Assembly: GCF_910596095.1 (NCBI RefSeq)
Contig: NC_056546.1
Coordinates: 18,070,425 to 18,134,424 of the forward strand
Direction: 5' to 3'
From: Thunnus maccoyii
Taxonomy: Eukaryota; Chordata; Actinopteri; Scombriformes; Scombridae
Length of the DNA: 64,000 nt
Shown here: piece after piece, positions 44,301-52,525 of the stretch
Position numbering within the stretch: the stretch's first letter is position 1
Layout: each line of letters starts with the position of its first letter
The notes under the pieces: model-generated
What the model was told of the DNA's origin: nothing
Databases searched by the model: none
Seen by the model: only the letters and a program-made list of their open reading frames with translations
Made by a program: the position numbers and the translations under genes

Positions 44301-46802
44301 TATTTATATGTTTATTTATTTGTATTCATGTACTTTAGATCAGCGTCTCCATGCCCCTAACGTGTAGGGTTCATTCCAGAGTGACTCGACTCGGTGCCAA
44401 GGCTGTGACATTTGAGTAATATTCCTCATCAGATCTCGCATCGTATTTAGTGCCCTGCGGTTTTCATGACATTATCACATGACCTGCTCGGGGAAGCACA
44501 GCGTGTTCTGCGCCCTCTGATCCTTCCCTGCAGTATCTGTCGATTATAAGGTCCTGTAAGGGATCACAGCGCCTATAACAGATCAGGGCCTCTGCTGTCC
44601 CTTGAGGCCCTCCTTGGTTATGTTTTTCAGAAATGCAGTGGATTGGACAGCTAAAGAGGCTTAGCAGCAGCTGGCCTCCTGCCATTAAAAGCTCACCCAC
44701 TGGGTGTAGAGATGCGGCTGAGGGCTGGCTCTATCACTGCTCGATACAACAGTTTGTTGTAATTTTTTTTTCTTTGCTGTCACCCACAGCCTTGCGCCTC
44801 AGTCTGTGGAGTATTTGTGATTCACTGCAACATGCTTGCTCCTTCCTTGTCACTGTATTTTGCATTTAAAACGGTGCTTGTTTATCCCTCAGAAAGAAAC
44901 GGCACATTTATTCATTCATTTTTGTGGCGCTCCCTCTTTCTCTCTGTTGCGGAAGAGATGCAGATATAAGACTGGTGGAGGTCAGACAAGAGAGGCTGAA
45001 GCTGAGGTTGGGGGCAGGGAAGATTGTGTTGCTGTAAGCCTGTGACTAAGCTGGGATTTGAAACTGTGATCTGACAGTTTCAGGCTCTCTCTTATGAGCA
45101 CTACATTATGTGACGGCTTTCATTTCTTGAGTTGGCAGATTGCAGAAAAGCAGTCATAACAACCATATTGATTTTAATCTGCTGAAATATTCACTTCAGC
45201 TTGAACTCTAATTCTATCTGAGCAGTTTTATGTGCATGTGAATCACTGTGATGCATATTATGTTGTCTTTTTCACAAAAAAACAGGCTCTGATAATCTTG
45301 CCCGCTGTGGAGCCCTGGAGAGCCTGGTGAATGACATGGCAGACGACACGTGGGACAACAAAGCCATGAACAGGATCAGTGCAATTCACTTCCTGGATGA
45401 TGATGATGAGGAGGATGATGACAAGGTGAGACCAACAAGCTCGAGGGCATAATATGGCATATGGTGATAGAAAATCAAAAATGAAAAGTAACCAATGTTT
45501 TACATTTTTCTTGCCCAAACCAAAAATGAATTGATTACAGCCTGATATATCTTAATCCTCTGTGTCATAGACCTCCATTGTTGTCCAAAAACTATTAAAA
45601 CACATCATGAGCCACACTGTTCCTTCATCATGATGAACATGAGCACTGTGATTTGTAATTTGAATCAATCCTATATACACTGTAAACTGAAAACTATAAT
45701 TCCCAGATGTTTTAGGAAACACTGTAAGAAAATGAAACTATATATTTGTTTCTCGTTTTTAAACATTTACAAGCTGGGGAAGTCTGAAATTATGGATTTA
45801 TTTTGGTCTTTTCATGGGATTTGTCGACAATAACAAAAATACAGACTAATGCCATTGTTAGAGCCATATATACACACATATATAACAGATAAATACTGTA
45901 TTTGTAAATAATTTGTATTTTGCTGTATTTAATTTGCTCATGATAAGATCATCTGTAGTTTCCTTGCAGTGCACTCGAGTAGGACCAATAATGACTGCAG
46001 TCACCCTGGCTTGTGATTTATTAAAATGTTTAACAAGCCGCCTGTGCTTGTTAGTTAACTCAGTTGAAGCCCTGGAGCCTGGAGAGCACACTACTATTTG
46101 ACCGTACTTAACGTGCTGCTTACTGTGCTTTTTGTAGAATGTTTTTATGTGTTTTTGCTACCATGTTTCATTTTTATATTAGGAGAAAAGAGTTTTTCAG
46201 TAAACGGTTTGAACGAAGAACATCGAATACAGAGTTTTATTAAAGCCATTATAGATAAAACTGAAAATCAGTTCTGTTTTTCAACTAAACTGCCACTTTT
46301 ATATTAACAGTCGATCACATGACTACTTGCATGTGAATGGAGTCAGTCTAGTGATAAACCTTCAGACCCAGATGATCACCCGGCTCTGCAGTTCCCCTCA
46401 TCACCACAGATGTATTTTCTAGTTGACATTGTGGGTGTATGTGATGTGCTATTGTGTTTTCTGCTTTGTACTGTTTGTTATTGTGCTGTTATATGTTTTA
46501 TTTGTAAGGGACTGCAGATGAAATTAGCTTTAAAGCTAACTCTGGTGCAGTACATCAAATGTTAACATTTATGTTTAAAACTGTACATTGTCCCAATGTA
46601 AATACAAAAAACAAACTAACGTGAATCCGTCTCTGTCACACAGGGAACACTACTTCGACGGGCCACGCCTCACCCAGGTGAGCTGAAAACGATGAAGAAA
46701 GCAGCTGAGAACCTCCGCAACGACCTGAACGCTGCCAAAGGCCTGGACTCCAACAAAAACGAGGTCAATAACGCTGCAGACAGAGTGACCACGTCTGTGT
46801 GA
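20378..46802 (+). CDS. lrrc1: Leucine-rich repeat-containing protein 1 (LANO, Scribble-family LRR protein)
   Basis: Fourteen coding exons join in phase: 20378-20536, 30083-30200, 30962-31040, 33378-33467, 36359-36415, 36590-36653, 37477-37551, 39025-39169, 39377-39495, 40263-40346, 43204-43319, 43868-44040, 45286-45425 and 46644-46802. The product is 525 residues, against about 524 in mammals. It starts [10 protein letters not shown]; the cysteines at 4 and 10 match the palmitoylated pair of Scribble. About 16 LRRs follow ([37 protein letters not shown]), then the LAP-specific segment ([18 protein letters not shown]). An acidic run [12 protein letters not shown] precedes [13 protein letters not shown]. 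The C terminus TTSV is a class I PDZ ligand. LANO is a basolateral polarity protein that binds PDZ proteins of the DLG type and cooperates with Scribble and Erbin. Two internal donors in the last exon and PDZ exons downstream suggest a longer isoform. Confidence 0.97.
22741..23062 (+). repeat. Teleost repeat of the gggctgcaactaacgatta family
   Basis: It begins gggctgcaactaacgattat, continues with tttggtctataaaatgtcag, and ends with an inverted version of the start (gatttcagctttaatc). The palindromic ends suggest a nonautonomous DNA transposon. The superfamily is not assigned. Confidence 0.7.
23484..23700 (+). repeat. Partial copy of the same teleost repeat
   Basis: It starts ttgcaactaataattaatct and carries ttggtcaactaaatgtcagaa. 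It is diverged and 3'-truncated relative to the copy at 22741. Confidence 0.6.
25832..26062 (-). repeat. Reverse copy of the same teleost repeat
   Basis: The family is recognised in reverse complement from ggctaaagctgaaatgat, tgctggttttcttaaac and ggctgttggttggacaaaa. Confidence 0.6.
31041..33377 (+). other. lrrc1: lrrc1 intron 3 (2.3 kb)
   Basis: Canonical splice ends. No gene or recognisable repeat boundary was seen inside. Confidence 0.7.
33468..36358 (+). other. lrrc1: lrrc1 intron 4 (2.9 kb)
   Basis: Canonical splice ends (AA|GTAAGT ... cattacag). Nothing further is recognised. Confidence 0.7.
37973..38839. mobile_element. TTAA-flanked nonautonomous element (piggyBac-like)
   Basis: The ends are inverted: TTAAagaggacctattatgc at the left and gcataatatgtccccttTAA at the right, each with a TTAA (37973-37976 and 38836-38839). 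TTAA target duplication is the mark of piggyBac-type transposition. The 0.87 kb interior has no transposase frame. It sits in lrrc1 intron 7. Confidence 0.7.
40347..43203 (+). other. lrrc1: lrrc1 intron 10 (2.9 kb)
   Basis: No exon is seen. A GC-richer stretch at about 41810-42310 (ggacgcagtaaactcactat, gatgcgcccaggctacgc) differs from its surroundings and may be an unassigned mobile element. Near 40.96-41.1 kb a motif of the type tgtagatggcgcac recurs. Confidence 0.5.
44100..44298. repeat. Compound AT/TATG/CA microsatellite
   Basis: It contains (TA)n, (TATG)n, (CA)12 near 44234-44258 and a final (TA)n run of about 20 units. It lies in lrrc1 intron 12, about 60 bp after the exon 12 donor. 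Long open frames here are artefacts of the repeat. Confidence 0.97.
45426..46643 (+). other. lrrc1: lrrc1 intron 13 (1.2 kb)
   Basis: AAG|GTGAGA donor and cacacag acceptor. No further element is recognised. Confidence 0.8.
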
Positions 46803-52200: not shown

Positions 52201-52525
52201 TCATCCCTTAGAAATCACCTCATTTTAAGCTTTTCCTGAACTAAAAAATCCTGGAAAAATGAACATATGACAGTTATATGACAGTCTTTCTTAGTGGACA
52301 CATCATATCACACGAGCACCTGCTTATTTTTCCCTCCCAAACCTGTTTCCTTCTCTGGCAATAACCTGACAGATCCCGCGGATCATCCTCACTCATCCTT
52401 CTACCTCAGATGAAGATGTGGAGCTCTTGACACAGAGCCCCAGCAGAGAACTGCTACATGAATTTGACATTCCTGACAGACACGCACACTCTGACTGTTT
52501 CGACAGTGCTTTCTATCCACCTTGA
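49294..52525 (+). CDS. Scribble-type single-PDZ protein, possible 3' part of an LRR+PDZ lrrc1 isoform
   Basis: Exons in one continuous phase-0 frame are 49342-49533 (or from an ATG at 49294), 49780-50019, 50219-50308, 50563-50640, 51664-51939, 52089-52187 and 52373-52525 (TGA). Exons 3 to 5 give a complete PDZ domain: LQIKVSGQRGSLGIS with the SLGIS carboxylate-binding loop, IAGGKGSLPYKDHDE, GIFISRVTKGGPSEKAGVHV, GDRLLE, then VNGLNMQGVTHLEAV and IKMKVLRER. This matches Scribble PDZ1 far better than Erbin or Densin PDZ. A Ser/Gln-rich linker and a tail ending DCFDSAFYPP follow; I do not recognise the tail. Standalone, about 391 residues; fused to lrrc1, about 888. Upstream exons and the donors at 49533, 50019 and 51939 are weaker than the PDZ core. 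A relic is possible, but all frames and splice sites are intact. Confidence 0.8.
50679..51250. mobile_element. Long-inverted-repeat MITE, copy A
   Basis: The left arm starts ggctcacaatttttcaagtg; the right arm ends gacttgaaaaattgtgaacc, its complement. The complementary arms extend inward for well over 100 bp. It lies about 40 bp after the donor of PDZ exon 50563-50640. Copy B is at 61018-61730. Confidence 0.75.
50953..51035 (+). mobile_element. Retroelement tail nested in MITE copy A
   Basis: The text ggcaaggcaagtttatttgt, atagcacatttcaacaac and caattcaaagtgctttacat is a very common fish retroelement segment. It interrupts the MITE, so it inserted later. Confidence 0.7.

Follow-up and report, generated by a model that had tools for sequence, protein, structure and literature searches.

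Exons of a Scribble PDZ1-type domain downstream of lrrc1 in Thunnus maccoyii: a fish Lano locus that seems to keep a PDZ half

Lano, the product of LRRC1, is presented in PMC12731447 as the only LAP family member without a PDZ domain, and PMC12731447 and PMC546208 treat it as a natural PDZ-less LAP protein. Human Lano comprises 524 amino acids, according to PMC10333293, and we use the name LAP-specific domain (LAPSD) as it is given in PMC546208. Here we describe the lrrc1 locus of the fish Thunnus maccoyii, in which the exons of a complete PDZ domain follow the lrrc1 stop codon. The window, that is, the whole stretch of DNA analysed, is 64,000 nucleotides long (C14:18070425-18134424), and the genome searched comprised 782 Mb in 54 contigs. 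No report of a PDZ domain in a vertebrate LRRC1 was found among the titles and abstract openings searched, a set that leaves subscription journals mostly uncovered, and RefSeq or Ensembl may include the exons.

The lrrc1 protein, read across the exons given in Table 1, has N-terminal leucine-rich repeats (LRRs) as judged by the Pfam LRR families; no SCRIB or LRRC1 LRR chain was among its best 60 of 316 matches in the PDB. After the stop, the plus strand encodes a complete PDZ domain (Pfam PDZ, E=4.9e-19, 68.9 bits, cut-off 23.2), and its three exons have GT-AG borders, are in phase 0 and are free of stops. The presence of the domain on the same strand and its intact GT-AG borders and frame, both proposed in an initial annotation made from the sequence, were thus borne out. 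The distance of about 2.5 kb given there holds for the start of a predicted linker; the PDZ proper begins about 3.4 kb after the stop. A linker exon starting at 49306, as originally drawn, had to be abandoned because no acceptor AG precedes this position; the phase-0 acceptors lie at 49285, 49312 and 49342, and they score 4.2, -2.6 and 4.8, respectively (the weights of all splice scores are approximate vertebrate frequencies). The start of E3 was set at 50219, the place homologous to that in scrib (score -1.5), despite the better-scoring alternative at 50225 (6.1). For the donor of E5, 51777 scores 3.6 and 51939 scores 0.3.

Table 1 Features of the window, with the evidence used to delimit them
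Feature	Position	Strand	Basis and remarks
lrrc1	20378..46802	+	ATG at 20378, stop ending at 46802; 14 coding exons, 525 amino acids, ending in VTTSV; in-frame chain, GT-AG borders
CpG-rich stretch, likely promoter	19751..20500		only one in the window, at lrrc1 exon 1
lrrc1 exon 13	45286..45425	+	donor score 6.6, phase 0; candidate junction on exon 14 skipping
lrrc1 exon 14 (LAPSD b and Lano tail)	46644..46802	+	weak inner phase-0 donor after 46763
E1, predicted linker exon	49285..49533	+	open frame and codon score; alternative starts at 49312 and 49342
E2, predicted linker exon	49780..50019	+	open frame and codon score; weak donor
E3, PDZ1 first exon	50219..50308	+	90 bp as in scrib
E4, PDZ1 middle exon	50563..50640	+	78 bp as in scrib
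E5, final PDZ1 exon with tail	51664..51939	+	PDZ1 end matches scrib; may end at 51777
E6, probable decayed PDZ2 middle exon	52089..52187	+	anchored alignment to scrib PDZ2 middle exon
E7, stop-containing end exon of a probable decayed PDZ2	52373..52525	+	anchored alignment to scrib PDZ2 end exon; weak acceptor
Kelch-like gene	6868-8955	-	BTB, BACK and Kelch repeats; upstream of lrrc1

We compared the window PDZ with the PDB, where its best single-domain relatives among the best 60 of 374 matches were 12 Scribble/LAP4 chains (108.6-113.2 bits), taken as human Scribble PDZ1. The only row scoring higher, DLG4 (2xkx, 120.6 bits), is a sum over three domains of 36-44 bits each, and two- and three-domain rows (DLG4, 4wyt) are interspersed in the ranking through such summed scores. 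Next came 5wou, 'Protein lap4' (79.3 bits), presumably the Drosophila PDZ1, and the SCRIB PDZ2 chains (about 67 bits) stand after 8boj at 69.0 bits. The latter structure, together with 8buw and 8bv7, is filed as 'Leucine-rich repeat-containing protein 1'; it is probably a placozoan Scribble-like protein. As this PDZ scores 71.1 bits with PDZ2 of the fish scrib and 59.8 bits with PDZ1, it may be PDZ2-like. The fish's own scrib PDZ1, used as a yardstick, reaches 152 bits against human PDZ1 and 105 against 5wou, whereas the corresponding values for the window PDZ are 113 and 79, indicating that the PDZ at lrrc1 is more changed, yet points to the same relative. The window PDZ is identical to human Scribble PDZ1 at 56/89 positions and to the fish scrib PDZ1 at 51/88 or 52/89 in two alignments, and its identity to nine other PDZ domains is 36-47%. 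Hence, among the PDZ domains compared, it is closest to Scribble PDZ1, in agreement with the first reading of the sequence. Aligned with the corresponding stretch of DLG4 PDZ3, its binding loop is SLGI and its helix B opens with His (THLEAVSAL); since both features are kept, the domain should bind class I C-termini, like Scribble PDZ1. Relatives were absent from a viral contig collection, and a general genome contig collection yielded seven loci, all bacterial (29-57% identity), with no vertebrate DNA.

A genome search with the PDZ returned its own three exons first and then three consecutive exons on C21 (8973765-8973323, minus strand), which match the window exons in order and with the same break points. 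When 60 kb of C21 around this match was compared with the lrrc1 exons, counterparts were found in order for 13 of the 14 coding exons, identifying the gene as scrib; a counterpart of exon 1 was not found in this 60-kb stretch. The acceptor phase is equal in all 14 lrrc1-scrib pairs compared, comprising lrrc1 exons 2, 3, 4, 5, 7, 8, 9, 10, 12, 13 and 14 and the three PDZ exons; exon 6, unscored in scrib, and exon 11, which begins at an intron that scrib is without, stand outside these pairs, and the acceptor of scrib exon 2 was chosen to fit the alignment (2.3) over a higher-scoring site 11 bases on (4.1). Exons 10 and 11 (40263-43319, plus strand) correspond to one exon in scrib, so an intron was gained or lost in one of the genes. 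Within PDZ1, intron positions and phases are common to the two loci in 3/3 exons, the first two of which are of equal length in both. The lengths of all six scrib exons and all seven predicted window exons compared are divisible by three. A genome search with exon 12 gave two strong matches only, one at lrrc1 and one at scrib, and in the LAPSD a/b region, located by exon position rather than by a LAPSD profile, exons 12-14 match scrib exons at the same place. The scrib exon with LAPSD b ends after 42 codons, at a CAG/GTACAT donor. In lrrc1, the frame past LAPSD b continues into a tail (12 residues) and then a stop, and a phase-0 GAG/GTCAAT remains after 40 codons of exon 14 (score 0.1).

In scrib, the exon of the PDZ1 end also carries the PDZ2 start, and the middle and end of PDZ2 follow in exons of 81 bp and 249 bp, respectively; in the window, the PDZ1-end exon is followed by exons of 99 bp and 153 bp. 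We aligned E6, anchored on the right, with the scrib PDZ2 middle exon and obtained a score of 21, which was reached by 1/2000 shuffles and by 0/315 open non-coding stretches before GT (maximum 18). In this comparison, limited to the middle exons of PDZ1 and PDZ2, the score with the PDZ1 middle exon was lower (14; 17/2000 shuffles). E7, anchored on the left, scored 26 with the scrib PDZ2 end exon (0/2000 shuffles; 0/285 open non-coding stretches after AG, maximum 12) and lower with the ends of PDZ1, PDZ3 and PDZ4 (8, 15 and 3, respectively); as a true-pair reference, the scrib PDZ1 end scores 67 with the PDZ2 end. The anchored test was applied after local alignment (9/1000 shuffles) had shown similarity, the choice having been made beforehand. 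Neither Pfam nor phmmer against the PDB found a PDZ in E6 or E7, so the link to PDZ2 comes from the fish's own scrib. These results suggest that E6 and E7 are probably a decayed PDZ2, the start of which can no longer be made out; as neither search recognises it, it is unlikely to work as a PDZ. The tail of E5 was tried as the PDZ2 start and rejected (1123/2000 and 994/2000 shuffles; 52/2000 with the RER segment). No PDZ3 or PDZ4 was found in the vicinity, the nearest other PDZ match on C14 being more than 600 kb away (150 of 425 candidates were scored in one search).

Codon scores were trained on 33 exon pieces from lrrc1 and scrib, and six frames were compared. In the PDZ half, the predicted frame scores best in 7/8 exon pieces, the exception being the PDZ1 end (0.37 versus 0.44). 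Open non-coding stretches with an equal or higher score numbered 0/43 for E1, 4/57 for E2, 25/1542 for E3, 172/1986 for E4, 1/945 and 1/345 for the two parts of E5, 5/1274 for E6 and 5/451 for E7. E4 is unconvincing by codon use and is secured by homology; E1 and E2 are predicted from open frame, codon use and splice-like sites. Between the window PDZ1 and scrib PDZ1, the proportion of nonsynonymous differences (pN) is 0.288 and that of synonymous differences (pS) is 0.773, the latter saturated; the LRR-part segments of lrrc1 and scrib have pN values of 0.218-0.265 in 4/5 cases and 0.078 for exon 2. Given this frame preference and the order, phases and intron positions of scrib, the PDZ exons stand above chance. 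They very probably encode a translated protein under selection.

Because the PDZ is nearest to Scribble PDZ1, the exon order, phases and introns equal those of scrib, and the following exons align with PDZ2, we regard a common ancestry of scrib with lrrc1 and its PDZ half as highly likely. It is well supported that lrrc1 is a duplicate of scrib and that no less than PDZ1, and probably PDZ2 as well, was present in the ancestor. To this extent, the initial proposal that the ancestral lrrc1 was a full LAP gene is upheld. For the age of the duplication, putatively at the origin of vertebrates, we rely on the literature: PMC4042849 groups LRRC7, LAP2, SCRIB and LRRC1 in a single 2R-ohnologue family. 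The fish lrrc1 locus thus seems to keep a PDZ half that the human protein is without.

The explanation that we favour, which as a whole we hold at slightly better than even, is that lrrc1 is a scrib duplicate that keeps its PDZ half (PDZ1 intact, PDZ2 probably decayed) beyond a Lano-type stop and makes short and long forms. Both genes would descend from one ancestral LRR, LAPSD and PDZ gene. Most likely, the ancestral exon 14 was extended into the intron that follows it and acquired poly(A) sites, creating the Lano stop; exon 14 is probably a composite last exon. The short form would terminate at exon 14 and end in TTSV, a class I PDZ ligand, and the long form would have 704-907 amino acids with LRRs, LAPSD and one working PDZ, produced either by skipping exon 14 from the strong exon 13 donor or by cutting at the weak inner donor. 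All four lrrc1-PDZ joinings tried are open in frame. In addition, a CpG test (observed/expected CpG above 0.8, GC above 0.45) was passed by 2/254 windows, both at lrrc1 exon 1, mildly arguing against a second promoter at 47-49 kb. Considering the open joinings and the sole CpG-rich stretch, we judge it moderately likely that the PDZ exons are joined to lrrc1 rather than forming a separate gene. A strong donor-like CAG/GTGAGC (6.8) also occurs within exon 14 at 46677-46678 (plus strand); being in phase 1, it would put the phase-0 PDZ exons out of frame.

Several observations weigh against this explanation, and other accounts of the locus have to be considered with them. In a 9-row tree, the window PDZ groups with both Scribble PDZ1 rows, the placement anticipated at the outset, with a support of 76/89, a value at which the tree by itself is no proof; the approximately unbiased test does not reject the competing group with PDZ2 (p-AU 0.07), and in a 12-row tree the forks around the window PDZ are open. 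Neither E1 nor E2 resembles the scrib linker (161/1000 shuffles for E1, 607/1000 for E2 and 259/1000 for both), and as the alignments are no better than shuffles we rejected these exons as linker relics; elsewhere in the genome they have no match at E 1, and E1 is unique. PDZ exons can be shuffled, and the tree of such a short domain is weak; both points leave room for a later insertion here of PDZ exons copied from scrib or a different gene, in which case they would be uninformative about the ancestral lrrc1. We give such an insertion very little credence, since position, strand, order and phase follow the scrib plan and a probable PDZ2 remnant comes after PDZ1. The predicted donor at 50019 (-1.0) and acceptor at 52373 (-3.7) are weak; the weakest sites of the lrrc1 exons score -1.4 and -0.3. 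The two weak predicted sites, the decay of PDZ2 and a window PDZ that differs more from scrib PDZ1 than the scrib PDZ1 domains of different species do from one another could reflect a dying relic in which some splice sites have failed and the PDZ exons give no stable protein. Such decay is improbable: none of the seven predicted exons contains a stop or frameshift, the pN of PDZ1 is only slightly above that of 4/5 LRR-part segments, and codon scores favour the predicted frame.

The remaining points concern how the two halves are transcribed. The interval from exon 14 to E1 contains seven AATAAA/ATTAAA hexamers, at 46.9-48.7 kb, exon 14 has a weak inner donor, and an in-frame ATG within E1 makes a separate start possible. 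All three would suit a split gene, in which lrrc1 makes the PDZ-less Lano only and the PDZ exons form an independent gene of at most about 394 amino acids with its own promoter and start. The hexamers are as expected for a transcript ending there and also fit a composite last exon. Against a split, no CpG-rich stretch occurs near 47-49 kb, the acceptor-like site at 49285 suits an internal exon, and the lrrc1 joinings tried are all in frame. We therefore consider a split gene possible but rather unlikely. Fish Lano might even be a switchable LAP protein. Depending on which last exon is chosen, it would be made either short, with TTSV as a class I PDZ ligand, or long, with a Scribble-type PDZ of class I; binding to, or competition for, one another's tails would then be conceivable between these forms or between Lano and Scribble, and the mammalian PDZ-less Lano would be a lineage-specific loss rather than what defines the gene. 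We offer this reading, taken as a whole, as a speculation and think it doubtful.

The surroundings of the locus are those expected. The kelch-like gene upstream of lrrc1 is probably klhl31, an assignment based on its adjacency and on synteny, and MLIP-family exons lie on the plus strand at C14:18146563-18151040, 12-17 kb past the right end of the window (2/3 matches above the cut-off), such that the PDZ exons are located between lrrc1 and mlip. The human gene order is KLHL31-LRRC1-MLIP, placing the fish locus where it would be expected. Scanning the window for Rfam families and tRNAs yielded no match. Elsewhere in the window, a lysine-rich open frame of 320 amino acids (12630-13592, plus strand) has no Pfam match; its stretch SFESYLNYD is reminiscent of Elongin A. 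At 54400-54801 there is a minisatellite-like array whose units are about 38, 75 and 162 bp long, and an open frame of 175 amino acids (55109-55636, plus strand), with only a weak Pfam match below the cut-off, looks similar to the ORF1 of LINE-type elements.

Should a PDZ-bearing Lano be made in fish, the fish results on Lano/Scribble redundancy would have to be reconsidered, and it would become possible to place the loss of this half within vertebrate phylogeny. The locus would, moreover, clearly exemplify a multidomain gene shortened via a composite last exon with its detached half under selection, new within the known LAP family and of interest to the Scribble and Lano field.

Compared with Scribble, which has four PDZ domains, the window has the same plan of LRR and LAPSD exons followed by PDZ1 exons in equal phases, but a stop after LAPSD b before the PDZ exons, a decayed-looking PDZ2 and no PDZ3 or PDZ4 found nearby. 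The long form would equal Erbin and Densin-180, with LRRs and one PDZ, in domain count, whereas its PDZ is of the Scribble PDZ1 type, and the Erbin PDZ is absent from the best 60 PDB matches. Mammalian Lano, which ends in VTTSV in human, is matched by the fish short form in its class I PDZ ligand at the end and closely in its length; the fish gene differs from it in having PDZ exons downstream.

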